Source: Cordylochernes scorpioides (lineage: Eukaryota; Arthropoda; Arachnida; Pseudoscorpiones; Chernetidae). From it: a stretch of 64,000 bases of DNA. The first letter of the stretch is position 1. Every line of letters begins with the position of its first letter. Positions 38,401-62,131 of the stretch are shown one piece after another. The position numbers and the translations under genes were made by a program. A model generated the notes under the pieces. That model was given only the letters and a program-made list of their open reading frames with translations, was not told the DNA's origin and did no database searches. The stretch covers positions 20,282,611 to 20,346,610 of the forward strand of contig CP092874.1 of assembly GCA_030710605.1 (NCBI GenBank), given 5' to 3'.

Positions 38401-38583
38401 TATTTGTGTAAACATATAGGATAGTTTAAAAGAAAGAGTTAAGAAACTAGTATAACTTGATATAATTACATGCGAAACAACTATATACGCCTAGAAATTA
38501 CCTAATCTCTTCAATTTGTGTGCAAATTTAATTTCATATTTTCCTAATTGGTTTTTCAATTTACATATCACCCTACCCGACTA

Positions 38584-39600: not shown

Positions 39601-40479
39601 TTTATACAAAATAATTTTGCATATTTAATTTTATAAAGTTTTATTTAACAAAGTAATAATAATAGATAGAATATTTACATATTAGATTACGTAATAGAAT
39701 GTTTACATATTTAACTATTAATGATATGGAAAGGGGGAGAAAACATATATTAACTTCTTTGTGTGTTATAAACAATTTTTTGCAATTATACGTAAATTAT
39801 ATATAAGGAAGGAGAGGTGCAAATCTGGACCGTAAAACTTTTAAGTATCAGCTTAAAATTTCTAAATTTTTCTCCTTCCAAACTTTTCACCGAATTAAAA
39901 TATCGTTTGGCTTAAAAACCAGGTTAAGCCTACTTAAGACAGTACTATAATTAGTAGTCGAAAGCTCGTTAAAATGGCGGGAAAATCCGTGGAGAGAGAT
40001 CTCAGACGACCACCTTAAAATTTTTGGCGGGAAAATACCGGGAAGCAGACGATAAAGCGGAAATGTTAGGAAGAGATGATAAATGTCCTTGAGATTGACT
40101 TTGAGCTTAAAGATCGACCCATTTGATGGATGTCATATGAAATGATCATGAAATTGGGCAAGGAGCCAAATCACTCCCGATAATCGAAATAAGTTTGCGC
40201 GTCCATGCGGACAAAAAGATATGAAAATCCGGGAATATATATAAATCATATGGGGATTTTATAGCGCGCCATTGATTTTATATATTCTCTTTGACTTTAT
40301 AGTGTTTTCTTATCTGAATTATGATACGTTAAATCCCGGGTTACCAATTCTAAATCTCAGAGAACTTTAGAGTAAACTTTAAAATATGTTTTTTTTTTAA
40401 ACTTTGAGAGATATGTAAATATTACTTCGCAAGTGCTTCTATTTACATATCTACTTCCATATATCACATCTGTAAATGA

Positions 40480-42000
40480 TTATACACATTATTGACATGT
40501 GTTAACACATCATCATATGTAATGTACTTTGTACAAACTGAGGATATATCAATAAAACTGTAATAGATTAAGAGTTGAGCTGAAGCGAGAGATAGAAGTT
40601 AAAAACGTCTAAAATCGAGATAGATTTAGAAGTCCCAAAACTACATCTAAAGATAGATAGGAAACTGTCAGGACGGCGCCAGTGTAGAATTTCGCCAGAC
40701 GATCCACGCTCTTGTCGCATCTGCTGAAATGCAATACCTCCTATCTCGGAAAAAATATATAAAGCTTTCGTCCTAGCCAAAAATATAGCCACTTCACCAT
40801 CAGCGCGAGCCCTCGTCGGTTGTCACCAAGATCCATCTCAACAAAAAAACAACAACAATAAAGCCTTTATTTAGGGTCACTGACCCTATACAGGATTCAC
40901 CAGAGGTATGCATAAGAACAAAGCAGTGAGACAAAGGAAATAACGATATATACAGAGTAAGAAGAAAAAGAAAAAAAAACAAGAAAAGAAAAAAAAATAA
41001 GAAAGAGGGAAGCAAGAAATCAACACAAAAAGAGTAGCAGTAAGAAAGTGAGGAGTGAGTATCACTTGGCCTTCTTCTGAGATATGGACTTGTGGAAACC
41101 ATAAAACGCCGTAGCAATATACTTATTCTGGGTCATATTGTCAATTATTGATGGAAGTGAAGCACAGAGTTGCCCAGTTTTGAGCATAAGGGTTCTTCTT
41201 TCTTCTTTCAGAGCAGGGCAATCAAAAATATAGTGAGTGATTTCATTTTTTAGTTTTGAATTACAGAAGGTACAAGTCGGGTCCTCACCGCAGAGCATCT
41301 TGGTGTGGTTTTCTCTAAAAAAACTTGAAAGTATTCTAACTTGTGCGAGTAGTCTTACAACCGGGAAAGGAAAATCTCCTAAAAGGTATCCCTCCGTCAT
41401 GAAAGATATGTGAATGTCTTTGTAGTGAGAGTATAGCTTAGATTTATCCATTCTTGTAAGGTCGTTTTGTATAGATTGGTCTGCCGCTGTTTTTAAGAGC
41501 CCTGTAATCGCGCTCCTCAGCGTTTCAGGGTCATCACAGGAAACAAGTGCAGGGGATCCATTATTGTTAAGCAGATTGGTGAGCTTTTTAATGAAACCGA
41601 TGGGTGTGCCCGAAGCATTAGACCAAGATCCATCTCATCCACCATGTAGACCAGTAAGAACTCTTCTATCTCCATCTTTCGCTCCTAGCTCAACTTTTAT
41701 CTGTTCACGGACTTTCCTAGTGCAATTGTGTCTTCGTTTTTTTTTGTGTGGACATTCCCAAGCTTTCCACTCTGCCTCGACCACGACTGCCTGTACTCTG
41801 TGAAAACTGTTGAAGGTCTCCCAAGGTGCAGATAGGTACTGGAAAACTCCCCATCCTGACTGTTCCTCTCGGTTAACACAGAATAGCGAGAGTTGACAGG
41901 ATCATTCACCACAATTTAAGTCGAATGGATACCTCACCACAGTTTTAGTCGACAAGATTCTACAAGAGTCAACAAGACCTCATCACAGATTTAGTCGACC
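40480..42000 (+). repeat. Solo LTR (copy 1), interrupted by a CR1-like insertion
   Basis: Inverse of the LTR-like sequence at 48228-49033, which is related to but diverged from the LTRs at 51754 and 59024. Here it is split by 40841-41621 and lacks its terminal 100 bp or so near 40480. Confidence 0.75.
40841..41621 (-). pseudogene. CR1-like retrotransposon, 5'-truncated insertion
   Basis: A 781-bp insertion between 16-bp duplications ACCAAGATCCATCTCA (40825-40840 and 41622-41637). The uninterrupted site is visible in copy 2 near 48590. The minus-strand frame at 41062-41451 (129 codons) carries the tail protein: FPFPVVRLLAQVRILSSFF, the zinc cluster CTFCNSKLKNEITHYIFDC and KYIATAFYGFHKSISQKKAK. 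The 3' end has the hairpin AGGGTCACTGACCCT, AAATAAAGGC and an imperfect (TTG)n. RT is missing because of 5' truncation, as usual for LINE copies. It post-dates the duplication. Confidence 0.9.
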
Positions 42001-42149
42001 TGTATATATCTTCTAAAAGAATTGAATTTTCACTTTACTTCCTTACATTTTTTTCACTTGAATTTCAATGAATAGCCGTATTAAAACACAACGCAATAAC
42101 GCGGCATCTACAAGTGCATATATGAAAAATATATATATAAAAAAATAAG

Positions 42150-42300
42150 TGGGTCAGATGTTGATATTAAAAATAAAGGAAGTATATCCTGACCACAAGC
42201 ACATGTGCTTTTTAGATGGCAGAACGCTATCTAGTGGAGCAAAAATAAACGTTTATTTAACTTGCTCCGTGATATTTGGCCAACCCATATATATAAAATG
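42150..42300. repeat. Family F/E composite repeat
   Basis: GTCAGATGTTGATATTAAAA, TATATCCTGACC, GCACATGTGC, GATGGCAGAACGCTATC, TAGTGG. Counterpart 47940-48075. Confidence 0.7.
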
Positions 42301-42753
42301 AAAGGATTTTCGCAAGAATATGTTTCTTTTATATACAATACAAACTTCTACTGTCCTTACTGCGACCGATGTTATGTTAGAATGATACTGGCGTATAAGA
42401 AATGAGTGTTATTATCGGACGCCACAGTCGGCTATCTAACACAGCTATGAACAGAACGATTCTGCTCACACCAAATGGTAATGCTATCACCACCTAGAGC
42501 GACCTGTAAGCTATAATTCACCCACAATATACGTTCAAATAATCGATCGAACACAATAGTAGAATCTACTCGATCGTTTTTAAGAATTAATTTGCATAAT
42601 TTCTATATACATAATATATTTACATATCTCCATTAGCATAATAATGGTAACTAAGGTGATCAAAAATAAACTTTTTCAAATCATTACAATATAATCAAGA
42701 AAAAATCAATATTCAAAAGTTAATAAATAAAATGAAAATATGAAGATACACAA

Positions 42754-42929
42754 TAGAACCTTCATAAGAGGACACTCTCACTAGAGGACCCTTATTTACA
42801 CAAAGGGCAGTTTTATCACCATGATAACCATTTTTACTAATTAGGAACTTTCTTCAGAGTAAAATAGGACGTCTAATCTCTGTAACTAGGTGTTGTCTTT
42901 TAGAAACAGAGGTGGTTCTTCTGTATACG
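42754..42929. mobile_element. pogo-like MITE, second family
   Basis: CAATAGAACCTTCATAAGAG ... and the inverse CAGAGGTGGTTCTTCTGTAT at the other end. Termini of about 28 bp, diverged. Counterpart 62160-62340. Confidence 0.6.
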
Positions 42930-43205
42930 TTTAAAACATAATCAGAAATTACCAAAATAATACTTTGTATCAATTTTAAGGTGAGAAAATATCAGAATTC
43001 AAAGGATATAAGTTTCTTTTAAAACATTTTTTGATTGTTATTCATTTCGCCTTAGAGCGCTATGTCCCACTAGGGACACTTGCACTTTAATAATAAACAA
43101 AAAGTTTGAAAGAAAAGAAAAGAAAGATATTTTAAATATGTACAGAATTAAGTATGTAAGTTAGTTAGATGAAAAGATAAAAATGAATATCAACACAATT
43201 GATAT

Positions 43206-43372
43206 GAGCGGTCTAGAGATCAATTTGGCGAAACCGCTGAGAGGGTTCACTACTGATGAGCCAAGCCCTCTCATTCAATAACTCATATCATTGCAGTAAG
43301 GTCTGTAGAGATAATATTTGATCATATTTAAAAGAAACGCATTACCAGTAAATTTATATGTGTAAAATTTTA
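43206..43372 (+). repeat. Snapback subfamily C, right half only, inserted in repeat R
   Basis: The core at 43225-43273 (TTGGC, CGAAAC, GAGAGGG, CTGATGAG, GCCAA, CCCTCTC) plus the right arm. Bounded by ACAATTGATAT at 43195-43205 and 43373-43383, an 11-bp target duplication when compared with the empty site at 36032-36042. Confidence 0.8.
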
Positions 43373-43856
43373 ACAATTGATATATGTATAAAGAGTTGCT
43401 ATGCAAATTTAGTTAAATGAAATCAAATTATAAAGTATTGTGTGTATTCGAGAAAGACAATTTACATAAAAAAAGTTTTAAGGAATATTTTATAATGAAA
43501 ATATGCTAGATATTAGAGAATTATTCAATTAAAACAATACTAAAAAGAGTTAATTTTAAAATAAAAGCGTTTCAATGGAATTTAGTAGTTTTTTTAATAT
43601 AAAATTCAAAACATTTTAATTCACAAATCTCTAGTGCACGAAAGCCCATCTACAGGAGAAAGCATACTACAATAGCTCGTAATATGACAAGAGTTGAAAT
43701 ATAATAAAAGGTACTTATAGTATGGATTCAAATTACTATATATAATCATCCACTGTATTTGTTGATATTGTCGTGGAGATAAATAAAGCAAGGACAAATT
43801 TGGTAATAATTAATTTATTATAAAGGTGGGTATTTACCTTTTAGTTCTCCAATAAA

Positions 43857-44035
43857 AAAAGTCGGTGAACAAGTGGGTAACACCCTCGATTCCCGACAGT
43901 CATGAACCGGGATTGAATCGCGCGTTAAAATTTTGTTTAATATGTAAATAACCTTCACATATTATTCACTGTTTCAATTATCATGAACTAGGTTGCTCTT
44001 GTTGAGCGGTACCCAATAAAGTGATTTTGAACCGA
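43857..44035 (+). mobile_element. Small tRNA-like SINE insertion
   Basis: A 179-bp insertion between 12-bp duplications TTCTCCAATAAA (43845-43856, 44036-44047). The empty site is in copy 2 near 63210. Its start GTCGGTGAACAAGTGGGTAA resembles an A-box region of a tRNA, and GGGATTGAATC a B box. It differs from the SINE at 24449. Confidence 0.65.
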
Positions 44036-44500
44036 TTCTCCAATAAAATTATATACAAGAGTTATTTATAGGGAGAACAACTTATTCCAAGGTAAAGATA
44101 ATAATAATGAGAGTGGTCAGCCACTGAGGCGTTTTCCTTATTTGCAGATAAGATTCCGAGAACCCCTCACACCTGTGGTACCTCCCGGAGTCCAGTGATG
44201 ATTGACAGGTGTCCCATGGAGCTTCTTGTGACTGGAGTTGTAGCGCTACTTAATAATATAATCCATTACTTAGGATTCTTATAGTATAGATTCAAATTAC
44301 TATATATAAGCGCCCTATGTATTTGATTATATTTTTACTATTGTCCTATTGGCGAGCTATTATACCGTGTTTTCTCCTATAGAAGGACTTTTATGCATGA
44401 AAACTAAGGATTTGTGAATTAAAATGTTTTAAAATAAATTTATATCCTTGGAAATCTTATATTTTGACCTTGTGGTAATCAGGATTATTATGATGCATTA

Positions 44501-44790
44501 GCGCGCCATCTGTTATCAAAATTCGGAACTATTATAGACGCTTATGGTTCTTTTAAAAATTAAGCAATTTCTACTGCCCTTACTGCAATGGAAAAAATAA
44601 TGGGAAGGCCTGGAAGGAACCCTCCCAGCGTTTTCGCCAGTTTAATCTACCTAATGGTTGGGTTCACCACTGATGAGCCAGGCCCTTCCATTAATTTTTC
44701 CATTACAGTAAGGGCAGTAGAAATTGTTTAATTTTTTAAAAGAATCATACGCGTCTATAATAGTTTCCAATTTTCATAATCAGGATTATA
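44501..44790. repeat. Snapback subfamily B, palindromic form (copy 1)
   Basis: Starts GCGCGCCATCTGTTATC. Arms of about 95 bp each include CTACTGCCCTTACTGCAATG. The loop holds one inverted and one direct partial core (CCCTCCCAGCG, TTTTCGCCAG and CACTGATGAGCCAGG). TAATCAGGATTAT lies on both sides (44478-44490, 44777-44789). Confidence 0.8.
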
Positions 44791-44812
44791 TCTACACAGT
44801 ATCTACCAGACG

Positions 44813-47291
44813 CCGTCTTCAGTTCTAAGAGTGTAGATCCTTGTAGTTAAGGATTCTACACCAAACCTAACCTTGTGACCTTGTCTACCCACCCAGCTCA
44901 CTAATTGTCGCTGGTTTTTTTAAACTGCATTATTAAGTAACTGGGGGAACAATTACAATTTTATGAAGGTCTTGCATAATTCCACTTTTTTGGCATTCTG
45001 TTGTTTGGCAGGTCCTTGAGGACTAGCGATGTGGAACCTTACCTTGTCGTGTACAAGGTGGACCTTACATTTCAGTGTTGAAGCACGTTGGCTCTCTTGG
45101 TTTCCTTCTATGTTTATCCAATGAAGCTTGCCCTCCCATGTTGTTGATGGCAGAGCCCACACCTTGTTTGATTTCAAAGTAAAACCCCTATAAACTAATC
45201 ATTTCCCCACAGAGCGTTAAGTATGTGAATCATGGAGAAAATCCCCCCCCCCCCCTCCCCTAACTACACCTTTTGTAAAGTTGGATATTTTGGCCCATGT
45301 TTATTATTTATGAGTTTTACAATTGTTTTATCCTAGAAGGTTGGGAGGTAACCAAGAGTGATGTGTCACTTCACTGAGGCAAACAGACTCCAGTAATCTC
45401 GTTTATTGACATAAATTGACTGACTGCTGCTAACTAAAAACTGTCGCTATTTATATACAAAATTCTATGAAAACCATTATGAAAAACAGGATATTTGCAT
45501 ATCCATAATTCAATATGCAAATACACTACAACAATGGAGATAATTCTGAGGAAACACTGGAGTTTTTTTTTTCTCATTATAAAAACAGTCCTCCTACCAA
45601 CCTTTCCTACTGAAATAATATTAGGAGAGTTATTGTGTTTTTTTATTAAAGTGGATGACTGGGTGAAGTAGAAAGCGTCTGCCTTTGTCATTAAGACTGT
45701 AACACTACTCAGTGGCAAGCCGACTTAGCTTAAAAATAAATGGCCGCCTCTGACATGAGAAAGACACCATGTGCAGCTGCTTCTAACATGGAGTACAAAA
45801 GCTGCTCATCCTGTATCCCTGGATCAGAAGCTCTTACAGGGTGCTATCAGCCGGGCCAGCTGAGCCCAGGTTTTTTAGTGAGCTTGTTAACTCTCCCCTC
45901 CTTTTTTCATCCAGGCTTGGGACAAGCAAAGACGTTAAAAGTAGTATATATAGACGTGAATTGGATAAAAATGAATAGAAAATATTGATGTGTTTTAATA
46001 TTTATTTATAAACAATTTATGTAAATAAAGACTAAAATAGTGAATCAATCCTAGGTTCTATTCATTCTTAATTAAAGGTTCGTCGATCCTTTTTCACCTT
46101 CATCAAGAGATGTGAAGATCCTGGTTCCTCTATATATGTAAATATTCTAGTTGATCATCGAGGACCCACGCCATCTCCTCTGCGGCGAAGTACGTGATCT
46201 ACGTATTCTTCGTAGATCGTGAAATACGTGGTGTCGCTGGAGACCCACTGGCGATTTTCTATCAAACTCTGCAGCGCTGGCAGAGGCGCCATGTTCTTTG
46301 TACATAGTATCATGCATATATATTATTCCGTTTATCATTACTCTTCACAATTCATCCTTTCATACCTCATCCCTAAGGTTAGAAATAATCGTTATTTCTC
46401 GCGTTAAAATAAATTTTGATTTTTCGTTGAAAAGAAACACATGCGGGATAATTTTAAAATGTCGTTTTACAATCACAAGCCGCATTATATTGTATCATGC
46501 ATATATATTTAAATATCTTTTTAAAAATAGTACAGACTGTATACTTTGTACGTATTGATAAGATATCAATAAAATTATTTTAATTGTCAATTGTTTATTT
46601 ATGTAAATAATAATAAAATTTATGTAAATAAGTGCCAGAATTTGTATAAAATATGTATAGACTCTACTGATGGTAAAAATATTTAGAGGTATTTTACTAA
46701 TTAGATAAAGCTTGATCTACACATTGTATAACAGACTAGTATTGTATTGAGACTTGTTCGACAACTTAATATAAATTGAAGACTTCCTCAATTTTTTTTA
46801 TATAAATGTGTGGTGTCCTTCGGCGACCCACTGTCTCCTTTTTCAAAGACGGACAGCTAGTGTTGTCTTTTGTCTATCTATAGTCTCTCTCCAGTACAAC
46901 ACACATATATGTACATAAGGAAAACGTCTAGATATGCAAAACAAGATATATATAAATAAATAAACAAGTTGAAATGCATTTATATAATTAAAACTGATAA
47001 TAGTATGCAAATAGATACAAATGAGATTTAAAATGCTTTTAAAAAAAATAGGAGTTAATATTTCTAAATAAATAAAAAATTAAAATTAAACTTATAGTAT
47101 ATACTTTTTGTAAGTTTATTCTTGATAATGGTGTCTACAGAAATGTTTTCTCATATTGGTCATATAAATATATGTCTGTTCAGAAATTTGACCCAATTAC
47201 ATATTTACAAGTTATAACATTTAAAAAATAACATTAAAAAGCGCTTTTCAATATTAAAAAAAAACTATTTTGAATTAAGAATTCAGAGATG
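44813..47291. other. Spacer before the first gap, mostly unassigned
   Basis: Holds a C13 run (45243-45255) and family G sequence at 46325-46500. Two short frames are not dominated by known repeats: minus 44953-45177 (KVWALPSTTWEGKLHWINIE ...) and plus 45740-45988. I cannot assign either and see no clear splice sites. They could be remnants of host exons or of unknown elements. Confidence 0.3.
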
Positions 47292-47391
47292 NNNNNNNNN
47301 NNNNNNNNNNNNNNNNNNNNNNNNNNNNNNNNNNNNNNNNNNNNNNNNNNNNNNNNNNNNNNNNNNNNNNNNNNNNNNNNNNNNNNNNNNN
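47292..47391. other. Assembly gap, 100 N
   Basis: Exactly 100 N, a conventional unknown-length scaffold gap. Confidence 0.98.
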
Positions 47392-47408
47392 TTTTAAATA
47401 TCGATTTT

Positions 47409-47509
47409 GTTGTAAATGTTTCCTCTTCCCTCTCCTCTTGTTGATGTGTAAATACGGCGAATCCTATATGGGGCGGAATGCCCTAAATAAAGGCTTTTGT
47501 TGTTGTTGT
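47409..47509 (+). mobile_element. CR1-like 3' tail, 101-bp insertion
   Basis: Bounded by ATATCGATTTT at 47398-47408 and 47510-47520. Contains a hairpin GGGC-GGAAT-GCCC (47471-47483), AAATAAAGGC and (TTG)n. Confidence 0.85.
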
Positions 47510-48227
47510 ATATCGATTTTTTCGAAGATTATATTGTGATGATTTGAAAATATTTTTTTTGATCACCTTAGTTACCATTATTATGCTAATGGAGATATGT
47601 AAATATATTATGTATATAGAAATTATGCAAATTAATTCTTAAAAACGATCGAGTAGGTTTTACTATTGTGTTCGATCGATTATTTGAACGTATATTGTGG
47701 GTGAATTATAGCTTACAGGTCGCTCTAGGTGGTGATGGCATTACCATTTGGTCTGAGCAGAATCGTTCTGTTCATAGCTGTGTTAGGTAGCCTACTGTGG
47801 CGTCCGATAATAAACACTCATTTCTTATACGCCAGTATCATCCTAACATAACATCGGTCGCAGTAAGGACAGTAGAAGTTTGTATTGTGTATGAAAGAAA
47901 CACATTCGTGCGAAAATCCTTTCATTTTATATATGAGTTGGCCAAATATCACGGAGCAAGTTAAATAAACGTTTATTTTTGCTCCACTAGATGGCGTTCT
48001 GCCATCTAAAAAGCACATGTGCTTGTGGTCAGGATATACTTCCTTTATTGTTAATATCAACACCTGACCCACTTATTTTTTTATATTTTTATATTGTTTT
48101 TACATATATACACTTGTAGATGCCGCGTTATTGCGTTGTGTTTTAATACAGCTATCCATTGAAATTTAAGTGAAAAAAATGTAAGGAAGTAAAGTGAAAA
48201 TTCAATTTTTTTTTTAGAAGATAAACA

Positions 48228-49033
48228 TGTCGACTAAATCTGTGACGAGGTCTTGTTGACTCTTGTAGAATCTTGTCGATTAAAACTGTGGTGAGGTATC
48301 CAGTCGACTTAAACTGTGGTGAATGATCCTGTCAACTCTCGCTATACTGTGTTAACCGAGAGGAACAGTCAGGATGGGGAGTTTTCCAGTACCTCTCTGC
48401 ACCTTGGAAGACCTTTAACAGTTCTCACAGAGTACAGGCAGTCGTGGTCGAGGCAGAGTGGAAAGCTTGGGAATGTCCACACAAAAAACGAAGACACAGT
48501 TGCACTAGGAAAGTCCGTGAACAGATAAAAGTTGAGCTAGGAGCGAAAGATGGAGATAGAAGAGTTCTTACTGGTCTACATGGTGGATGAGATGGACCTT
48601 GGTGACAACCGACGAGGGCTTGCGCTGATGGTGAAGTGACTATATTTTTGGCTAGGACGGAGGCTTTATATATCTTTTCCGAGAAAGGAAGTATTGCATT
48701 TCAGCAGATGCGACAAGAGCGTGGATCGTCTGGCGAAATTCTACACTGGCGCCGTCCTGACAGTTTCCTATCTATCTTTAGATGTAGTTTTGGGACTTCT
48801 AAATCTATCTCGATTTTAGACGTTGTTAACTTCTATCTCTTGCTTCAGCTCAACTCTTAATCTATAACAGTTTTATTTATTTATCCTCAGTCTGTACAAA
48901 GTACATTACATATGATGATGTGATGACACATGTCAATAATGTGTATAATCATTTACAGATGTGTTTCTATTATACAACATGAAAATCTTGTTATAAGTTA
49001 TATACAATATGGGGTTGTTGGTTTAAATTACCA
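48228..49033 (-). repeat. Solo LTR (copy 2)
   Basis: From GTCGACTAAATCTGTGACG to GGTTTAAATTACCATA. Shares GAACAGTCAGGATGGGGAG-like blocks with the LTRs of the element at 51754-59857, but clearly diverged. Confidence 0.75.
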
Positions 49034-50499
49034 TATACATATAGGATTATGTCCCTTGGTTTTGATATTTGGAAGTAGATATGTAAATAGAAGCACTTGC
49101 GAAGTAATATTTACATATCTCTCAAAGTTTAAAAAAAACATATTTTAAAGTTTACTCTAAAGTTCTCTGAGATTTAGAATTGGTAACCCGGGATTTAACG
49201 TATCATAATTCAGATAAGAAAACACTATAAAGTCAAAGAGAATATATAAAAATCAATGGCGCGCTATAAAATCCCCATATGATTTATATATATTCCGGAT
49301 TTTCATATCTTTTTGTCCGCATGGACGCGCAAACTTATTTCGATTATCGGGAGTGATTTGGCTCCTTGCCCAATTTCATGATCATTTCATATGACATCCA
49401 TCAAATGGGTCGATCTTTAAGCTCAAAGTCAATCTCAAGGACATTTATCATCTCTTCCTAACATTTCCGCTTTATCGTCTGCTTCCCGGTATTTTCCCGC
49501 CAAAAATTTTAAGGTGGTTGTCTGAGATCTCTCTCCACGGATTTTCCCGCCATTTTAACGAGCTTTCGACTACTAATTATAGTACTGTCTTAAGTAGGCT
49601 TAACCTGGTTTTTAAGCCAAACGATATTTTAATTCGGTGTAAAGTTTGGAAGGAGAGAAATTTAGAAATTTTAAGCTGATACTTAAAAGTTTTACGGTCC
49701 AGATTTTCCCCTTTCTCCTTCCTTATATATAATTTACGTATAATTGCAAAAAATTGTTTATAACACACAAAGAAGTTAATATATGTTTTCTCCACCTTTC
49801 CATATCATTAATAATTAAATATGTAAACATTCTATTACGTAATCTAATATGTAAATATTCTATCTATTATTATTATCACATTGTTAAATTAAAACTTTAT
49901 AAAATTAAATATGCAAAATTATTTTGTATAAAAATAATATATATACCATCAATTTGTTATCGTGATACTCCCGTGGAAGGACTGACAGGTCCGAAAGCTA
50001 GAGAATAAAATCTGAACAAGAAACTTAACCCTGGAGACTTTATTTTCTTTATAATATATAATTTAGTTATATATATTATATTTTATATAATTTATAAAAA
50101 TTTCAATATTTTAAATGTATAAATCACATGAGAGACGCTTATTTGCATATTGATAGCGTACTTATATTTAGAAAAACTAAGTAGATGGCTCACTTCTCAA
50201 ACCCTTATATGGAGAGATTTCTGATAGCATGTACTGTAGGTATATCAAATATCTATGCATGTAACATGTGCAGGACCCACGTGAACCATAGCCAAATTCT
50301 TAAAATGATATCCATGAAAAATATCGAAACTAACTTATCAGACTCTCAAATCCCTGACAATTTCTAGGTAACCACAGATCCTGTATCTTTCTTAAGAGTA
50401 ATGTAAATAAAAATAATATTTTTTTCGCTCATTATACCGTACAAAGAGAATAAGTTAAATATTTGAAGGATTCTAAAAGAGAGTATCGACAAAAATTAA

Positions 50500-50836
50500 A
50501 TATACACTCATAGACAAAACCTTAATTGGAAAATATTTGTTGTCGCCGGTTGTCTGTTTTTTTTTAAGGAGAAAGAGGTAATTTTATTCACACTTGATTA
50601 TCTCATGTGTCTTCAATAAAGGTCACTGTAATATCTTTCAAAGTTATTGTCTGAATCCCGATATACAAGTTAAAAGGTACAACATCCTTAAGTTTTGTCC
50701 ATGAGTGTATATACACTTGGTTATCTCGTGTGTCTTCAATAAAGTTCACTGTAATATCTTTCATAATTGTTGCTTGAATTCCGAAATACATGCTAAAAGG
50801 TCCAATTTTCTTAAGTTTTGTCCATGAGTGTATTAG
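50500..50836 (-). mobile_element. TACACTCATGG MITE, two units (copy 2)
   Basis: Inverse counterpart of 38584-39047 with one unit fewer. Confidence 0.8.
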
Positions 50837-51014
50837 TCGGGTAGGGTGATATGTAAATTGAAAAACCAATTAGGAAAATATGAAATTAAATTTGCACACA
50901 AATTGAAGAGATTAGGTAATTTCTAGGCGTATATATTTGTTTCGCATATAATTATACCAAGTTATACCAGTTTCTTAACTCTTTCTTTTAAACACTCCTA
51001 TATGTTTACACAAA

Positions 51015-51072
51015 TATTATTAGGAGGAAGGCGTTATTTAGAGGGGGCACTATAGACAGGTTTAACTGTATA
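51015..51072. mobile_element. pogo-like MITE, half copy (copy 2)
   Basis: AGAGGGGGCACTATAGACAG then GTTTAACTGTA. Confidence 0.7.
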
Positions 51073-51753
51073 TATATATATATCTTGATGGATAGAGGGT
51101 CATATGCCAGAAAGTTAACATCCACCAATCAAAGAACCGCTACTGTCTTTATTTAAAGAAATACTCGGTGATGGTTGGGGCGTCCGTCAACAGGATGTGT
51201 CCAGGATACCAGAGACGATCAACAGGCCTGCAGGAGACCATTGATTCTGCTGCTGTTGCTAGGCAACGGCCGTAGGTGTAGGAGACACTTCCTCGTAGGT
51301 CTGTCTTCTTCGGTCATCTCTCCATCTCTCTGTATCTCTCGCCCGACCAGAGCTCTGCTCTGAAGAAATTCGTTGACAAGGCAATCGCCCATGTCGGGGA
51401 CTCCGACCTAGACCTATCCGATTTCAGAACAGAATGCGACATTGAACGAGACGACACCCAGTGGGATTCGTCTGGTACAAACAATTTGTAATTATTTTGT
51501 GTTATACATTTTCCCCCTATATAATCTTATATGTATATTGTAATAAATCAGTTTCAATCTCTCTCCATCTTCGGTAAATAAAGACATAACGGTCTATCAC
51601 TTCACCTTAAGCCTGGACTTTATCAAATTCCTCAAGTGTGAGGTTTAGGTTAGGTAAGAAACTATAGAACACACATTCTACGATGGGGTATAGAATGACA
51701 GTCTGTACTCTTGCTAATATAGTAATAACATATAGCATTATTAAAGGTATATA

Positions 51754-52587
51754 TGTAATATTGTGTTGAGTCGACTTATCTGTGATTAGGGATCCTGTCG
51801 ACTAGCTGTAATATTGCGTTGAGGTCCTGTCGACTCTCTGTAATAATGCGTTGGGGTTTGGTAAGCCTGTTGTAGAACCTCGTCGACTCTCGCTATAAGT
51901 TGTGGCAACCGAGGGTCAAACCTGTAGTAACCGCGAGGGACAGTCAGGGGTGGAGAGTTTTCCAGTGCCTCTCTGCACCTTGTAGGACCTTTAACAGTTC
52001 TCACAAAGTACAGGCAGTCGTGGTCGAGGCAGAGTGGAAAAGCTGGGGATGTCCACACACACAAAACGAAGAGACACAGTTGAAAGAAAGTTCCTTGAAT
52101 AGATAAAAAGCGAGCCAAAAGCTAAGATGGAGATCGAGAAGGTTTCTTACTGTTTTACATGGTCGATGAGTTGGTCCCTGGAGACAACCGGCAAGGGGTG
52201 ACGCTGATGGGGAACTGAACTAGAACTGACTCCTGTCGCTAAGGCCGGTCTTATTTATACTACCTCTCCGACAAAGAGAATTGCATCACGGCACGTGTCG
52301 CTGCTACTCGAGACACGGCACGTGTCGCTGTTACTCGAGTCTGGCGCCTACCAGTCGGCTAACAATCTATCTTTAGAAGTTACTTTGTGATCTCTCAATC
52401 TTGCTTTTAACTTAGCTTTTAATCTATTATATTTTATTTATTCATCCTCAGTACATTACATATGGTGGTGCAAGGAGACATGTCAATTATGCGTATAATT
52501 AGTTATAGTTTATAATTAGTTCTATATACAACATGACAAGCTTGTTATATGTATTACATAATATAGGGTTATTGGTTTAAATTATCA
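51754..52587 (-). repeat. 3' LTR of element 2
   Basis: 834 bp, matching 59024-59857. Confidence 0.92.
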
Positions 52588-54697
52588 TAGATGGGCCCCG
52601 TGAGTGAAAGGGTTTATCCGGGTTTAAGCGGGTAAAGCCTCTCTAACCCAGGTAAGTAATTAAAATTTCTTTTAATTAATTAAAACTGTGAGGGTAAAGG
52701 GCTATAACAAGATGTTTATTTGGCTATATCTGAAAATTATAAAAATAAAACTTATGTTTAATTTAAAAGTTATGATATTCATTATAAAAGAGAACTGTAG
52801 ATAAAACCTTTGTTTGCTAAAAAATAATGATGATGTTCTAAGAGATTGTTGGCGGGCGTTGGAAAGGGTTAGGGGTTGAAGAATATGCAATTGTAAGTGT
52901 TGCACAGACAATCAAATACTGAGATCCAGGTGCAAAGCGAGGATATAGACTTGTGCGTCTTCCTTGGCAATGTTTCACCTGTGATCCTGTATAAGGTTAC
53001 AGTGCTTTGACACAATTGTAGGGTTATTGGGTTGAAAAGTTGTTGCAGAAAAGACTTAATATGATTGAAAGGGGTGGTAGAGCCATGCGATACGTAGAAT
53101 TGTTGTAGCGACAGTAGGTGGTCTGACTTGACTTGAAATCAAAGGTTGATTGTGGTCCGCTAGTGCTGAAAAAAAATTGAAAATTGAAAAAAGTGAACGC
53201 TTTGTGCATGCGTTGGTGATGTGCTCTGCGGATGATTGAAATAAACTTTTGAAACGTGTTCAGACCAAAAAGTCGAGACTTGTACTTCTGGGGAACGGTG
53301 TTTTCAAAGAGTTTGTTGATTTACGAAATCAAAAGAAAAATTGTCAAGCAGTACTGTCGTTTCTAGCAATGGCTGAAATAGGTAGTGAGAAAGTATAGGG
53401 ACTTAGTTAAAGAATATGATTGTTGAAAACGATTGTTGTAGATGCCCGATAGTTGATGATAAACATTGTCATATAATAAAGTTATTTAAACAAAAATATA
53501 GTGAATAAAAAGATAGAAATATGATTGCGGAAAACAACAGTATAAGGGGATAAAATCAAACATGTAATATACAAAAGACATAATAATGAATTAGCAAAAT
53601 ATAAAAGATATAATAATTAGAATTAGTAATATATAAAAGATATAATAATGAGAATTAGTAATATATAAAAGATATAATAATGAATTAACAAAATATAAAA
53701 GATATAATAATTAGATAAATGTTAAGTAGTAACAAATGGAGCAAAAAATGTCTCTTTTGAAGAAAAGTTAAAAGAAAACAAAAAATATTCGTTCCTGAAA
53801 AGAAAAAAAAAAAAAGAAAGGAACATATTCACACAATGTCTAGGTGTAGGTCCAAGATTATTGGTGTCTTTAGTTTGACCTATGGGGAGGCAATGTGGCC
53901 CTATGTCGCTTTGGTCCGGTCTGAGAAGTTGGTCTTTGCCAGATCTTCCCGATTATATTATGTGAGACCAGACGGGGAGCGATCTTGATCCCTAAAAATG
54001 ATGTAGTGTAGTGGAAGATGGGGACTTTGGATACATGAAGTGTATAGTGCATGTCTTAGGCGCTAAAAAGATTGCAGAGCGTTTTATGCAGTTTGGTCTG
54101 CAAAATTTTTAGGTGAGCCTACCCAAACGCCGGCTTGTTACGCTTGGGAAAAAATCATTTAAACTATTAATTTAACAGATCTTTTTTCCATGTAACATTG
54201 CGTTACCTATGGAGAAATGAGAGGTTAAATTCTTTTTTATTCCTAACGAATGAGCCGGTAATGTTGTGTTTGTTCGTATTAAAAGCGTACCCAAAAGTCA
54301 TATAATTGAATGATTGACAGTGAAGAGTGTTGAAGATTGGAACATTGTCATGGCGATGGGCGCCATTTTGGGGTTTTAATTGTCTTTTTACGATGGTATA
54401 ATATGGCGTCATATGATGTCATTTAAAGGATCGATAACCTTATAAAAATAAGATTTGCTATAAAAGGAATTTTATATAACTTTCCTATCCGTTTTAATCT
54501 GGTAGGTTATTTGGACACTAAAATCTAGCATTCTGCTGGGCCAAAGATACAGGCCTACTGCAATTGGAGGTGTCATGTTAACCTGACGCCGCTGCAACCG
54601 GTGTCCATTTCAGCTGGGTTGCTTGTTTTTGCTGGCGGTGCGATGAGTCATTCTGCTGGCTATGGGAAAATCTCTCTGCCTCCACTTGTTTCCTGAC
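52588..54697 (-). other. Long 3' non-coding region of element 2
   Basis: 2.1 kb without a significant frame. 53570-53718 holds about five copies of a unit near ATATAAAAGATATAATAATG. A comparable region occurs in element 1. Confidence 0.7.
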
Positions 54698-55870
54698 CTA
54701 ATTGAAAATACTGGGATTTAAATGTAAAAAAGGCTGTGAGCTTGTAGGCGGTATAATTCGGAAATATTGTGTTTCAAAGATATCTGGAGTCAAATGATTG
54801 AATTCAATGAAATATACATCTTGAGGCAATCGCTGTGGGTGTTGAACGAATCGGGGCTGTGGAGGTGTTATGTACAACACATCCTCTGTGTAATATTTTA
54901 ATTTATTGACATGTATGGTGTCACTATCTCTATTCAGGGGCTGATTTGGGCGATCAATTCGAACGACATTTGGTGAAATTATTTCAATTATTTTGTGGGG
55001 TCCAGTAAAATATGGTGCTAATTTACCTGTGTCGGGATGTCTGTATTTTTTTACCAAAACAAGGTCATTCTCTTCGAAATGTGGTGTTCTGTGCTGCTTA
55101 TCAAATGTTTCTTTATCTTTTTTATGTTTATTTTGAGTACGAGAGCTTGCTATCTCTCGAGCTATATTTATCTCGGGATATGGGTTAAGATGAGTTCTTA
55201 GATCTGGGGGGATAACATTGAACATTAAGTAGGTAGGTGGAAAACTTGTGACAGAATGGGGTGTGTTATTGTACGTCTGTGTGACGCGTTTAACTAGTTG
55301 AGTCCAGGAAGCTTTCGGATTTTCTAGATAAGCTAGTCTGAGCTTGCCTGTAATGGTCGCATTTAAGCGTTCTATTAAACCGTTTGCTTGTGGGTTATTG
55401 CTGGTAGTTAGTAGAGGTTGTATACCATGTGTTATTAGAAATTTACGGAATTTTTCTGAGGTAAAAGCGGGCGCTCTGTCAGATAACAGACGTTTTGGAG
55501 ATCCTTGCTGTAGTACAGTCGTGAGGGTTTGAATGTACGTTAGGGTACTGGTGGACTTCGATGGAAAGGTCCAAGCATATCGCGTTAAATGATCCACTAT
55601 TACGTGTAGATAGGTCTTGGAGTGTCCATATTTCGAAAATCCAGCTATGGTATCTATAGAGATTAAGTCGAATGGTTGTTGAGGTGGTGGAATTTGTCCG
55701 AGGGCACCATAGGGTTTACCTTTGGGCCTTTTAATGATTTGGCAGGTGTGACACGACCTGACAAATTTTTCTATAGATTTAGAGATACCTTTCCAGTAGT
55801 ACTGGGTAGTAATTATGCGGGTCATCTGAGAGATGCCTGGGTGGTTATACTTTTGGTGAACTTTGTTCAT
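54698..55870 (-). CDS. int: Integrase of element 2
   Basis: 390 codons. The frame also extends upstream of its first ATG. An HHCC zinc finger starts at residue 5 (H-x4-H in VHQKYNHPG, C-x2-C in CHTCQ). The DDE core follows: SIDTIAGF (first Asp), LLSDRAPAF (second Asp), NGLIERLN (Glu). The C-terminal GPHKI ... HVNKLKYY block matches the GPY/F region of Ty3-type integrases. This enzyme joins the cDNA to target DNA. Its ATG overlaps the pol stop as ATGA, in the -1 frame. In relatives integrase is usually fused to RT, so either a one-base change split the frame here or the element uses recoding or reinitiation. Confidence 0.88.
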   Translation of the reverse strand: MNKVHQKYNHPGISQMTRIITTQYYWKGISKSIEKFVRSCHTCQIIKRPKGKPYGALGQIPPPQQPFDLISIDTIAGFSKYGHSKTYLHVIVDHLTRYAWTFPSKSTSTLTYIQTLTTVLQQGSPKRLLSDRAPAFTSEKFRKFLITHGIQPLLTTSNNPQANGLIERLNATITGKLRLAYLENPKASWTQLVKRVTQTYNNTPHSVTSFPPTYLMFNVIPPDLRTHLNPYPEINIAREIASSRTQNKHKKDKETFDKQHRTPHFEENDLVLVKKYRHPDTGKLAPYFTGPHKIIEIISPNVVRIDRPNQPLNRDSDTIHVNKLKYYTEDVLYITPPQPRFVQHPQRLPQDVYFIEFNHLTPDIFETQYFRIIPPTSSQPFLHLNPSIFN

Positions 55871-57924
55871 GAGAGAATGTTGCAGGGTTTGGGAATTATT
55901 ATTTTAGTTACACCTTTTCGGGTAATGGTATGTAAGCCGTTTGTATCAATGTTGAAGGGGGATGCTGTTGGTTGATGCTGTTTTATAATATCAGTACTGA
56001 TAAATCCTACAAAGGGGTTTCTTGAGAGTAAATCTGCCTCATACTGTTGACTGCCTTTGATGTAGTGTATTTCGTAATTATAGGTAGATAGTCTCAAGCT
56101 CCATCTAAATAGTCGGCCTGACGGATTTTTTATAGTTTTAAGCCATTGTAAAGCTTGATGGTCTGTGTATATGGTGAATTTTATACCGGTGAGGTATATT
56201 CGGAATTTGTCTACACTTTCGACGATGGCGAGGCACTCAAGTTCGGAAACGGTGTAGTTTCTCTCATGTGCCCTAAGGGCGCGGCTAAAATATTGCACAG
56301 GATGTATTTGTCCGTCTGGGTGTACCTGTTTGAGTATGCCTGCAATCCCTTGGGTGGATGCGTCGCAATAAAGGCGGCATGGTAAACCGACTTGATACAA
56401 GTGTAGTACTGGTTTACTGGTTAAACTCTCTTTGAGAGTGGTGAAAGCTTGTTGACAGTCTGTGTTCCAATTCCATTTTACATCCTTTTTAAGTAGTTTA
56501 TTTAAAGGTGCTCGTAAGCGGGCATAATCTGCTATAAACTTATTATAAACGTTTACTGCTCCTAAAAATGATTGTAGTGTTTTTTGATTGTTAGGTGTTT
56601 TTATGGCATTTATAGTATCAAGGTTGCGCGTCTGCGGTGCATAAGTACCTGCGGTAACAGTGTATCCTAAGAAATCTATTTTTGTTTTAAAAAATGAACA
56701 TTTATTATAATTAAGTTTGATGTTTTCGTGTTGACACACTGTTAGAAATTGTTGTAGGTGTTGTAGATGATCCTCAAGGGTGTCAGAAAAAATAATGAAA
56801 TCGTCGAAGTAATGGGTAACAAAATTTAGTTTATATTTTTGCATGACCTGGTTTATGGCACGATGGTATATCTGTGGTGAATTTTTAAATCCGTAAGGAA
56901 GTCTACAAAATTCGTACTGACTATCTAACGTCACGAAAGCTAATAGATTACGTGAGTTAGGTTCTATTTCCACTTGCCAATATGCGGATGCTATATCTAC
57001 AGAAGAGTAATATTTGGCTTTTGACAATTTGTCAAGAATGGTTTCTATTAAGGGTAAAGGATGTACGTCTGGAGCGATGATTTCATTAAGTTTTCTGTAA
57101 TCAATACAGAAACGCTTCGTTTGGTCACGTTTGGTAACAAGCGTTATGGGACTGGCATAAGGTGAAACTGACGGGGCAATGATTCCATATTGGAGCATTT
57201 GTTCTATTTGGGTTTGTATTTCTTGTTGGTCGTGTAGTGGCACTCTATATGGGCGTAATGCTATTATTTTATCTGTGGTGGTATTGATTTTTACCGGTGG
57301 TATGTTCAATTTGGGCACATTGTATTTATTAGTAGAGAACACTTGTGAGAATTCATATAGAATTCGGTGGAGTTCGTGTGGACAATGTTCTAACTGAGGT
57401 GCCGCATTAGAAGGTATAGAAATCTCAATATCATGGGTAGGAGATATAGGGGGTGAACATATAATTGGAGTAGAGTCCGCCACGTGTAAACAGGACTGGT
57501 GCGAGGGGAAAGTGGTAAACATATCAGTTTCCCTCGGTTGAGTGGAACATAAATCCTGTTTGCACTTGGTGAACTTATAGACATTCGTTGGGAGAGCATC
57601 ATTATTTTGATAAATTTGGAGATTATTAAAATCTATAATTAATTTAAATATTTTAAGGGTATTAATAGATAAAATACCAAAAGGTAGTGAAGCTTCTACT
57701 ATAAAAAATTTTAGTTTTTGGGTGAGGTTACCGATTTTAAGTTTTAAAAAAATATATCCAAGGGTATTTACATTGTGGGCTATTGCATTTATAGTTAAAC
57801 TGTACTGATGGATAATAATTTTATATGGTAATCTATTTTCTATGGTTCTTAAAATATCTAAGTTAAGTAGGTTTATATATGCTCCCGTGTCTATTAAAAA
57901 GGGCAAGTTTACATTTGGTGACAA
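55867..57924 (-). CDS. pol: Protease, reverse transcriptase and RNase H of element 2
   Basis: About 685 codons. The listed first codon is TTG and the frame opens about 46 nt upstream, inside the gag end. Aspartic protease near the start (FLIDTGAYINLL, catalytic DTG). RT: motif A SSVDIASAYWQVEIE, motif B LPYGFKNSPQIYHRAI, active site YFDDFIIFS. RNase H: YCDAST, ELECLAIVESVDKF and YTDHQALQWL keep the catalytic acids. It converts the element RNA to cDNA in particles. The domain order protease-RT-RNase H-integrase is that of Ty3/Gypsy (Metaviridae). It ends ...NILS at the ATGA overlap with integrase. No internal stops. Confidence 0.92.
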   Translation of the reverse strand: MSPNVNLPFLIDTGAYINLLNLDILRTIENRLPYKIIIHQYSLTINAIAHNVNTLGYIFLKLKIGNLTQKLKFFIVEASLPFGILSINTLKIFKLIIDFNNLQIYQNNDALPTNVYKFTKCKQDLCSTQPRETDMFTTFPSHQSCLHVADSTPIICSPPISPTHDIEISIPSNAAPQLEHCPHELHRILYEFSQVFSTNKYNVPKLNIPPVKINTTTDKIIALRPYRVPLHDQQEIQTQIEQMLQYGIIAPSVSPYASPITLVTKRDQTKRFCIDYRKLNEIIAPDVHPLPLIETILDKLSKAKYYSSVDIASAYWQVEIEPNSRNLLAFVTLDSQYEFCRLPYGFKNSPQIYHRAINQVMQKYKLNFVTHYFDDFIIFSDTLEDHLQHLQQFLTVCQHENIKLNYNKCSFFKTKIDFLGYTVTAGTYAPQTRNLDTINAIKTPNNQKTLQSFLGAVNVYNKFIADYARLRAPLNKLLKKDVKWNWNTDCQQAFTTLKESLTSKPVLHLYQVGLPCRLYCDASTQGIAGILKQVHPDGQIHPVQYFSRALRAHERNYTVSELECLAIVESVDKFRIYLTGIKFTIYTDHQALQWLKTIKNPSGRLFRWSLRLSTYNYEIHYIKGSQQYEADLLSRNPFVGFISTDIIKQHQPTASPFNIDTNGLHTITRKGVTKIIIPKPCNILS

Positions 57925-57946
57925 TTCAGTCCATATTATTAATTGT

Positions 57947-58939
57947 TCAACGAAAATAAGTTTCAGGTTTTCCTACCGTTGAGCTGCTCGCGGGGCTTGC
58001 AGAGTCGTCTTGGCTTGCAGCTTGGACTTGGGGAACATGGCTCGGAGGTTGGACCTTGGGCTGGGTGTGGGTACCACGTTTTGGTACAGTGGTTGTGTGT
58101 GGTCGGGCGCTGTAGACTGGGCGTGTTTGGTCCCGTGGGAACCGTTGTCCACACTGGGAGTGCCAGTGCATGGCATTGCAATACTTGCAAAGCGAGGGGG
58201 GAGGTGTAACTGGGTATGTTACACGTGATGGCCGCTGGCTGTTGTACCGCGGTGGTGGGTTGTGGTAGGTGGGGTGTGGAGCCTTGTCTACTTGGCGCTG
58301 GTTCACTGCACTGGTGGCACACTGAGTTATTCTTGACACTAGGTCGAACCATTCCTTAATGGTGTTTGGCTGCACAGTTGCGACTAATCGCTGGTCTGCG
58401 ACGGGTAGTCCGTCGGTCAGAGATTCAATTAAAATGTCGGCGGGTAGGTCGAGTTTCATACCCATAACAGTTTTGTTTTGGTAGTAGTTTTCTAGGGACA
58501 TTTGGGGTGTCATTTTGATTGCCAAAAAGCGTGCAAACGACGCTTCTGTCGTTGCTGGGAATAAGTCTATCAATCTCTGGCGGGCTTCAATATAATATAA
58601 CCTATCTAACCGTAGGCTTCGGAAATATTGGAGGGGCTTACCTTGTAGGTAGCAGGGTAATTTGCGTAGGCGATCTGTGTAGGTCAGTTCAGTTCGGTCT
58701 GCTTGGGCATCGAAGTTGTCGAAAAAGCTTTGGGCTTCAAAAGTACCATCGTATGGACTTACGTCTATCTCCCTAGGAGATCGGGCTACCAGTAACTTAC
58801 TCAGGGCATCGGCGATCTGTGTCAGTGGGTCTGCGGAGGTATCTTGGGGCGGCGACGTTTCCTCCTCTTCCAATGTCGTTTCTTGTTTGGGGATAGTTTG
58901 TTCGGCTGTATCGTTGGACGGGTTGGTTTGCTCCTCCAT
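57947..58939 (-). CDS. gag: Gag of element 2
   Basis: 330 codons from an ATG 85 nt inside the 5' LTR. The N-terminus is acidic. The capsid region (about 60-200) shows PREIDVSPYDGTFEAQSFF, LPCYLQGKPLQYFRSLR and YYQNKTVMGMKLDLPADIL, the Ty3-type pattern. The nucleocapsid has CKYCNAMHWHSQC, a knuckle with spacing C-x2-C-x3-H-x4-C, one residue shorter than the usual C-x2-C-x4-H-x4-C. The Pro/Arg/Thr-rich tail may bind RNA. It forms the particle that packages the element RNA. Pol follows in the +1 frame and overlaps the gag end. Confidence 0.9.
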   Translation of the reverse strand: MEEQTNPSNDTAEQTIPKQETTLEEEETSPPQDTSADPLTQIADALSKLLVARSPREIDVSPYDGTFEAQSFFDNFDAQADRTELTYTDRLRKLPCYLQGKPLQYFRSLRLDRLYYIEARQRLIDLFPATTEASFARFLAIKMTPQMSLENYYQNKTVMGMKLDLPADILIESLTDGLPVADQRLVATVQPNTIKEWFDLVSRITQCATSAVNQRQVDKAPHPTYHNPPPRYNSQRPSRVTYPVTPPPSLCKYCNAMHWHSQCGQRFPRDQTRPVYSARPHTTTVPKRGTHTQPKVQPPSHVPQVQAASQDDSASPASSSTVGKPETYFR

Positions 58940-59023
58940 CTTGCTTCTTGGCTCTTTTCTATCTGGACAGTCTTTACCTTCTTCGTTGTGGTCTCCTTCG
59001 TTGTGGTAATCCTGTCGACTATC

Positions 59024-59857
59024 TGTAATATTGTGTTGAGTCGACTTATCTGTGATTAGGGATCCTGTCGACTAGCTGTAATATTGCGTTGAGGTCCTGT
59101 CGACTCTCTGTAATAATGCGTTGGGGTTTGGTAAGCCTGTTGTAGAACCTCGTCGACTCTCGCTATAAGTTGTGGCAACCGAGGGTCAAACCTGTAGTAA
59201 CCGCGAGGGACAGTCAGGGGTGGAGAGTTTTCCAGTGCCTCTCTGCACCTTGTAGGACCTTTAACAGTTCTCACAAAGTACAGGCAGTCGTGGTCGAGGC
59301 AGAGTGGAAAAGCTGGGGATGTCCACACACACAAAACGAAGAGACACAGTTGAAAGAAAGTTCCTTGAATAGATAAAAAGCGAGCCAAAAGCTAAGATGG
59401 AGATCGAGAAGGTTTCTTACTGTTTTACATGGTCGATGAGTTGGTCCCTGGAGACAACCGGCAAGGGGTGACGCTGATGGGGAACTGAACTAGAACTGAC
59501 TCCTGTCGCTAAGGCCGGTCTTATTTATACTACCTCTCCGACAAAGAGAATTGCATCACGGCACGTGTCGCTGCTACTCGAGACACGGCACGTGTCGCTG
59601 TTACTCGAGTCTGGCGCCTACCAGTCGGCTAACAATCTATCTTTAGAAGTTACTTTGTGATCTCTCAATCTTGCTTTTAACTTAGCTTTTAATCTATTAT
59701 ATTTTATTTATTCATCCTCAGTACATTACATATGGTGGTGCAAGGAGACATGTCAATTATGCGTATAATTAGTTATAGTTTATAATTAGTTCTATATACA
59801 ACATGACAAGCTTGTTATATGTATTACATAATATAGGGTTATTGGTTTAAATTATCA
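59024..59857 (-). repeat. 5' LTR of element 2
   Basis: 834 bp. On the minus strand a TATA box (AGTATAAATAAG, about 59519-59530) lies roughly 330 bp from the LTR start. GTCGAC-containing blocks CCTGTCGACT(A/C) recur near the far end. Confidence 0.92.
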
Positions 59858-59875
59858 TATATATATATATATATA

Positions 59876-60186
59876 TGTCATAATATATGCTCTTCCAGGA
59901 TTAATAAAACAAATCTACAGTCGACCAGAGAGAGAGAGAGAGAACGCAGCTAAGGCCGGTCACTTGATATAGCAGTCACATTCCAAGGGGGCGACCGCAG
60001 GGCCTTTTCTTGGAACCTCAGTTCTATGTTTACTCAGTCGGGGGGGTGGTGGACACACAAGACGTGCATTTCCGCGGTGGCAGCCGCTAGCGCTCCCTCT
60101 CTCCCTCGGTTTGCTGGGTTCCATCTTCCAAACTTGTTGTTTCATTATTTCTCACCTCACCACATCATTACCACTATATTGCCACA
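59876..60186 (-). repeat. Solo LTR, 311 bp
   Basis: On the minus strand TGTGGCAATATAGTGG ... ATATTATGACA: termini nearly the same as the LTR of element 1, but with a shorter, different interior. TATA on both sides (59872-59875, 60187-60190). Confidence 0.75.
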
Positions 60187-60865
60187 TATATATATATGAA
60201 AAAATAGTACAAATGTGATTTGTATAATTTTATATAATATATATTTTTCTTAATATATATATATATATGTAGTAATGTAGTTGTTGTATCTTGTAGGATG
60301 ACTGTAGTGTGGCATGTTGGTTGCAGTCGTGGTGGCCACAATGTTTAGAGTGGGTTCAGGCGTGATTGGGATTACACAAAAGGACGAGATATGTTGGATG
60401 GCACCATAGAGATGGCGAGTGTAGCCGGCGCTGTTCGGGAAGAGATCTATCTAGAGGGGTCCGTCAAATCTCGTGTCTCAAAGCGGACTACTCTATTTGC
60501 GCAAGAAGGGGCCATACCCGACTTGTTTTTTGGACCCTATTCCTGCTTTCCGGCGCCGACTGTAACGCACTCGATTTTATTTGGCACTTTGGCAATTACA
60601 CTACATCTATACAATATATGGAGACATAGATATATATTGGAATATATTACAACATATATATATATATAGGTTGACCATGTCTGAATATGCCAAAACTGGT
60701 ATTGTGGGTAAAGTTTTCAACTATGAATAATCGCGCCTCGGAAGATCCTCATTGGCTATGATATCGTCTCTGCGCAAACTGGTATTGTGGCCCATTTCTT
60801 ATCACCACTAGTAAAGTTTTTTTTACTAGCGTCATAAACATAATCCATTTTTCTAATGCATAATT
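60187..60865 (-). other. AT repeats and duplicated block
   Basis: (AT)n runs to about 60268, then the inverse counterpart of 37038-37640. Confidence 0.7.
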
Positions 60866-61934
60866 ATACCTTTCAGCATGTATATCGGGATTCAGACAAT
60901 AACTCTGAAATATATTACAGTGACCTTTATTGAAGACACACGAGATAACCAAGTGTATATACACTCATGGATAACACTTAAGGAAGTGGTACCTTTTACC
61001 ATGTATATCGGGATTCAGACAATAACTCTGAAATATATTACAGTGACCTTTATTGAAGACACACGAGATAACCAAGTGTATATACACTCATGGACAAAAC
61101 TTAAGGAAGTTGTACCTTTTACCATGTATATCGGGATTCAGACAATAACTCTGAAATATATTACAGTGACCTTTATTGAAGACACACGAGATAACCAAGT
61201 GTATATACACTCATGGACAAAACTTAAGGAAGTTGTACCTTTTACCATGTATATCGGGATTCAGACAATAACTCTGAAATATATTACAGTGACCTTTATT
61301 GAAGACACACGAGATAACCAAGTGTATATACACTCATGGACAAAACTTAAGGAAGTGGTACCTTTTACCATGTATATCGGGATTCAGACAATAACTCTGA
61401 AATATATTACAGTGACCTTTATTGAAGACACACGAGATAACCAAGTGTATATACACTCATGGACAAAACTTAAGGAAGTTGTACCTTTTACCATGTATAT
61501 CGGGATTCAGACAATAACTCTGAAATATATTACAGTGACCTTTATTGAAGACACACGAGATAACCAAGTGTATATACACTCATGGACAAAACTTAAGGAA
61601 GTTGTACCTTTTACCATGTATATCGGGATTGAGACAATAACTCTGAGAGATATTACAGTGACCTTTATTGAAGACACACGAGATAACCAAGTGTGTATAC
61701 ACTCATGAACAAAACTTAAGGAAGTTGTACCTTTTAGCATGTATATCGCTATTCAGACAATAACTCTGAAAGATATTACAGTGACCTTTATTGAAGACAC
61801 ACGAGATAACCAAGTGTATATACACTCATAGACAAAACTTAAGGAAATTGTACCTTTTACCATGTATATCGGTATTCAGACAATAACTCTGAAAGATATT
61901 ACAGTGACCTTTATTGATGACATACGAGATAACT
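60866..61934 (+). repeat. 123-bp satellite of nine mini-MITE units
   Basis: Units begin ATGTATATCGGGATTCAGAC at 60878, 61001, 61124, 61247, 61370, 61493, 61616, 61739 and 61862. Each junction is the palindrome AGTGTATATACACT, that is end CCAAGTGTA, TA, then start TACACTCATGG. Because 123 is 3x41, one frame stays open for 276 codons as a 41-residue repeat. No protein evidence. Confidence 0.93.
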
Positions 61935-62031
61935 GAGTATGAACTAAATTACCTCTGTCTCCTAAAAAAAAAACAGAAGGCGGGCGACATTAAAATATAA
62001 AATTTTCTGAAAGCTTTGTTCACGAATGTAG
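61935..62031 (+). mobile_element. Far end of the TACACTCATGG MITE, up to the gap
   Basis: CTCTGTCTCCTAAAA, GGCGGGCGACATTAAAATA and an inverted terminus ending CACGAATGTAG at the first N. Confidence 0.7.
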
Positions 62032-62131
62032 NNNNNNNNNNNNNNNNNNNNNNNNNNNNNNNNNNNNNNNNNNNNNNNNNNNNNNNNNNNNNNNNNNNNN
62101 NNNNNNNNNNNNNNNNNNNNNNNNNNNNNNN
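62032..62131. other. Assembly gap, 100 N
   Basis: Exactly 100 N. Confidence 0.98.

Follow-up and report, generated by a model that had tools for sequence, protein, structure and literature searches.

In a 64,000-nucleotide stretch of the genome of the pseudoscorpion Cordylochernes scorpioides (the window, C12:20282611-20346610 in a 2.62 Gb assembly of 24 sequences), one gap-bounded contig of 14.6 kb, c2 (47392-62031), has very probably been placed backwards. The tandem duplication that the window seems to contain is most likely formed by two parental versions of one locus that have been shuffled together. Judged from the sequence, the arrangement as a whole is highly likely to combine an unpurged haplotypic duplication with an orientation error on a short contig. 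Window coordinates are used throughout. The 40 kb upstream (-39999 to 0) and the 160 kb downstream (64001 to 224000) were analysed together with the window, giving a total of 264 kb. This stretch has eight gaps, all of 100 N, and thus nine contigs, c0-c8. At c0 and c8, the outer ends are set by the limits of the 264 kb stretch. The gene tags of C. scorpioides are numbered per chromosome, with lengths agreeing with the assembly sequences.

Two interleaved versions

The contigs c0-c6 sort into two diverged versions, A and B, which are interleaved along the scaffold as B A B(reversed) B A B A. The contigs c0, flipped c2, c3 and c5 make up version B, which is at least 94 kb long. Version A consists of c1, c4 and c6 and spans 96 kb. 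Only c2 is reversed among these seven contigs. Version A enters the window with c1 (1-47291, forward strand, true start at -6951). Its part at 7549-36728 is homologous, on the same strand, to c0 from -39081 to -7052, which lies upstream of the window; the homology is broken into 16 blocks with insertions on either side between them. Chained alignments of c0 and c1 cover 15,506 columns at 90.7% identity. The next part of c1 (36729-42718) matches c2 on the opposite strand, and the last part (42719-47291) matches c3 (62132-65849) on the same strand. The forward-strand contig c3 of version B starts at 62132, runs past the window end at 64000 to 90527, and is homologous to c4 from 65850 (65850-90527 matches c4 90628-114100). 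Further downstream, c4 matches c5 (end to start) and c5 matches c6; c7 and c8 match in reverse, by the end of the former and the start of the latter. In each of the pairs c1/c2, c1/c3, c3/c4, c4/c5, c5/c6 and c7/c8, the copies lie in separate contigs with 100-N gaps between them. Substitutions between the versions amount to 3.1-6.0% of aligned bases per contig pair. Two chains fall outside this pattern, one between c0 and c1 on opposite strands (3,409 aligned) and one between c1 and c7 (2,127 aligned, 82.8%); both are taken for dispersed repeats.

Base-level comparison places all five same-version junctions at offset 0 on the other version. On c1, the junction of c0 with flipped c2 falls at 36728|36729, and that of flipped c2 with c3 at 42718|42719. 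The junction c1|c4 falls at 65849|65850 on c3, c3|c5 at 114100|114101 on c4, and c4|c6 at 117065|117066 on c5. Because these junctions lie at offset 0, the true neighbour of 62031 would lie 7 kb upstream of the window, and that of 47291 would lie 26.6 kb downstream of it. The 264 kb stretch contains 16 contig ends, ten of which thus pair at offset 0. Four others (the ends of c5 and c6, the end of c7 and the start of c8) stop within a few bases of their homologous counterpart in the other version. The starts of c1 and c7 could not be placed. Downstream of the window, at 133873/150907 and at 197203/197304, both versions halt within a few bases of a common homologous position.

Orientation of contig c2

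The contig c2 comprises 14,640 bases of version B and is reversed as given. BLAST finds c1 and flipped c2 to be collinear in blocks of 87.5-95.7% identity, far above chance. All blocks are on opposite strands: c1 36730-37039 pairs with c2 62030-61725, 36824-37668 with 61079-60234, 37634-38834 with 51757-50583, 38707-40466 with 50833-49063, 40465-40840 with 48963-48588, and 41622-42716 with 48603-47506. The last alignment ends at 47506 instead of 47392 because an insert of about 115 bp (47398-47510, edges approximate) lies near this end of c2. The insert is flanked by the direct repeat AAAATCGATAT and is absent from c1. Outside it, the final six bases of c2 on the flipped strand (TTAAAA) align with c1 42713-42718 (TCAAAA), and the first base of c3, 62132, aligns with c1 42719. 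The direct copy then continues past the window as far as the last base of c1, where 47291 equals 65849 in c3.

The original prediction, made from the window alone, had described c2 as an inverted copy of 36728-42718 of c1, followed after a gap by a direct copy. The collinear blocks and the end alignment bear this out. The end at 42718 stands, and the other limit shifts by one base, since 62031 corresponds to 36729 and not to 36728. The same prediction had the 47392 edge meeting the 62132 edge without a lost base, which holds at base level. Its conclusion that c2 was scaffolded backwards is well supported. In addition, the last base of c0, -7052, abuts the 62031 edge at offset 0 (36728|36729 on c1), and c0 lies upstream of the window, thus outside the view on which the prediction was based. 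Both edges of flipped c2 are therefore matched, 47392 to c3 and 62031 to c0. Gap 2 (62032-62131, 100 N) closes at offset 0 after c2 is flipped. At gap 1 (47292-47391, 100 N), neither flank would have its true partner across the gap; the true continuation of c1 would be c4 at 90628, beyond the window.

How the arrangement may have arisen

The two versions, about 3-6% apart in substitutions, would most likely represent the haplotypes of a heterozygous source. Contigs from each version would have been retained and joined by the 100-N gaps in the order given above. The version B contig c2 would have been inserted backwards, so that the edge at 47392 truly belongs next to 62132 and the edge at 62031 next to -7052. 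The reversal presumably arose during scaffolding, in which short contigs have an ambiguous orientation, and Hi-C was probably used for the scaffolding of the present assembly. The lossless, non-overlapping tiling of the contig ends suggests that contigs were first assembled longer and then cut. Yet each end of c2 lies a few bases from an insertion edge, and the c5/c6 and c7/c8 ends stop close to each other's homologous position, which would point instead to a sequence feature behind some contig ends.

The artefact is an ordinary, already known kind of assembly error and involves no new biology. Anyone using the assembly would nevertheless meet tandem duplications and inversions that are false, and perhaps spurious additional gene copies. 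Asking whether the contig ends of one version tile the other at offset 0 is an easy check for interleaved haplotypes that needs no reads, and it indicates the exact joins.

Copy number and near-duplicates elsewhere

A 701-base query across 42500-43200 was used to count copies of the locus. Outside a dispersed repeat, it matches only in c1, c2 and c3 (among the best 40 of 2369 candidates). Some conserved CCT and MCM genes elsewhere show two or three copies within 200 kb. CCT near-duplicates are found on C2, where the copies are inverted and 104 kb apart, and on C6, where they are direct and 163 kb apart; C15 has five short CCT-like matches. MCM near-duplicates are found on C13 (direct, 93 kb), on C7 (inverted) and on C3 (three copies). 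The C7 pair has a 100-N gap between its copies, whose DNA identity is 95.1-99.3% over the four exon stretches that were compared.

A query from the X chromosome (C24, 180,100,396 bases, gene tags LAZ67_X) proved to be multi-copy, with 50 rows of matches at 39 loci among the best 40 of 1360 candidates. A neighbour within 200 kb is seen at 25 of these 39 loci, a figure that true local clusters could inflate. The neighbours form 13 same-strand and four inverted pairs, and 0.11 adjacent pairs would be expected at random for this dispersed family. The hemizygous X had been considered as a discriminator between alleles and paralogues. With a multi-copy query that has a near-duplicate, however, this comparison decided nothing. 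A 40 kb sample of X showed no internal collinear duplication. It has one 69-N run (C24:40024567-40024635), unlike the 100-N gaps of the window region; the run may be a true gap whose size was estimated, or sequence that was withheld.

Alternative readings

According to the original prediction, the flip of c2 leaves a simple direct tandem duplication that repeats at about 10.6 kb. With c2 flipped, a direct copy does come after 36729-47291, and the edge at 62031 lies one base beyond the end of an inverted-repeat element (c1 36730-39048), as recombination between element copies could produce. Homology is not restricted to the unit, however. It passes both unit edges, by about 29 kb upstream (c0-c1) and about 24 kb downstream (c3-c4). 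Both edges of the supposed junction are exactly partnered elsewhere, 47291 with 90628 in c4 rather than with flipped c2, and 62031 with -7052. The junction itself is not sequenced and would coincide exactly with gap 1, the same kind of coincidence that had been held against a real inversion, which disfavours the tandem model. A genuine tandem duplication of about 10.6 kb exposed by the flip is thus extremely unlikely. The version of this idea in which transposon copies recombined was dropped, as c0 abuts the 62031 edge exactly. From the alignments, the apparent period is the overlap of contig ends, i.e., the reach of c1 beyond the end of c0. It is decidedly unlikely that the c2 segment is truly inverted on version B, with contig breaks at both breakpoints. 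The prediction had argued that an inversion breaking at exactly the abutting base and coinciding with both gaps is improbable. The first part of this argument is weak: an in-place inversion would yield the same zero-offset pattern at both ends of c2, and the two c2 junctions alone are not decisive because a clean inversion would also abut losslessly. Heterozygous breakpoints can break contigs as well. The second part stands, as both putative breakpoints are assembly gaps. A real inversion would need both ends to coincide with gaps, yet similar breaks occur without inversion at c1|c4, c3|c5 and c4|c6. No match was seen between the first and the last 2 kb of c2, and a comparison of the last 2 kb of c0 with the first 2 kb of c3 yielded two matches on the same strand and none inverted (matches with E up to 1e-20 only, in both comparisons). 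Other pairs, c7/c8 and the MCM pair on C7, are also mirrored about gaps.

The two versions might instead be paralogues from a real segmental duplication that spans about 95 kb, with their contigs interleaved by the scaffolder and c2 still reversed. Several observations weigh for this or against two haplotypes. The divergence of 3-6% is high for alleles and is accompanied by many insertion differences, so that much remains unaligned (between c0 and c1, 15.5 kb of about 32 and 29 kb, with insertions on either side). Local gene families exist, most CCT and MCM loci are single (eight CCT/Cpn60 and five MCM loci have no near copy), and near-duplicates occur on X too, where the query, expected to be single-copy, has a 99% near-duplicate 96 kb away. 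On C3, an MCM exon region is present three times on one strand within 69 kb (172906059, 172952625 and 172974582), with 99.6-99.7% identity over 1.8 kb. Two haplotypes do not explain this triplet, because its copies are closer than 3-6%; it may be a recent triplication that is real, or a false duplication of another kind. Furthermore, a literature search found no published account of the assembly method for the present chromosome-level assembly; the Illumina draft of the species described in PMC8136511 (QEEW00000000.1) is distinct from it. Against paralogues, gap-associated near-duplicates of mixed orientation are found on many chromosomes, including the family scored with the X query. Each version also tiles losslessly, yet both are placed at one map position, as expected of alleles. 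We therefore regard paralogues as unlikely and infer that the versions are alleles. A reading that retains both haplotypes and a true inversion supposes that one animal carried strongly diverged haplotypes (3-6%), one of them with a true 14.6 kb inversion, each with private young retrotransposons, perhaps through admixture of diverged lineages. For C. scorpioides, PMC9964657 mentions a reproductive barrier among populations at 11% divergence. We consider this reading very unlikely.

Insertions and repeats

Each version carries a private young long terminal repeat (LTR) insertion. In version A, an LTR retrotransposon occupies 27363-33700, with LTRs at 27363-28193 and 32870-33700 that are 99.88% identical, and the corresponding site in c0 is uninterrupted. 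In version B, an LTR retrotransposon at 51750-59862 in c2 has LTRs (51750-52592 and 59020-59862) that are 99.76% identical and is absent from c1. The pol frame of the c2 element is 100% identical to a C. scorpioides protein over the aligned 80% of the query (among the best 120 of 1191 proteins). A 781-bp insert of version A (40841-41621), probably non-LTR-like, is missing from c2; there, the blocks to either side of it overlap by 16 bases, a target-site duplication.

A tandem array of a 123-bp unit (60867-61933) has about 8.7 copies in c2 versus about two at the matching side of c1 (36824-37039). The 123-bp repeat is linked to the inverted-repeat element and recurs at 38584-38949, 36824-37039 and 7830-8024, with a copy number that varies between versions. 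Matches to the U4 small nuclear RNA are found at 37124-37267 (forward strand, 59.7 bits) and 60643-60781 (reverse strand, 59.9 bits), against a gathering score of 46. They sit within the inverted-repeat element of c1 (36730-39048) and its c2 counterpart, and may be functional genes or copies carried by the element. A minisatellite at 16311-17722 is GC-richer and strongly strand-skewed, with units such as CCACATTCCCC and a GC skew of -0.70 in the surrounding 2 kb. ARAGORN predicts a tRNA-Thr (anticodon GGT) at 20579-20655 on the reverse strand, with an Rfam tRNA match at 20581-20653.

Comparison with known assembly errors

Assemblies of heterozygous genomes retain haplotigs and haplotypic overlaps (PMC7203741). 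Marks of false duplication include gaps between copies, half depth and single-copy k-mers (PMC9516828). The locus resembles the haplotypic (heterotype) false duplication of these two accounts in that two diverged copies lie in one scaffold, with assembly gaps between them and overlapping contig ends. It differs from the usual form, as far as these sources describe it, in that not one pair but several contigs from each version are interleaved, and these tile exactly. A direct tandem duplication is resembled only insofar as two direct copies adjoin after the flip of c2; homology beyond both unit edges and the unsequenced junction set the locus apart. Inversions are described as common in Hi-C scaffolding with short input contigs (PMC6719893). 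The short, gap-bounded contig c2, reversed relative to both of its true neighbours, fits this description, and it is collinear with both only when flipped: c0, flipped c2 and c3 then tile c1. Unlike the orientation errors described there, the contig ends abut losslessly, suggesting that longer contigs were cut, and the use of Hi-C is our inference.

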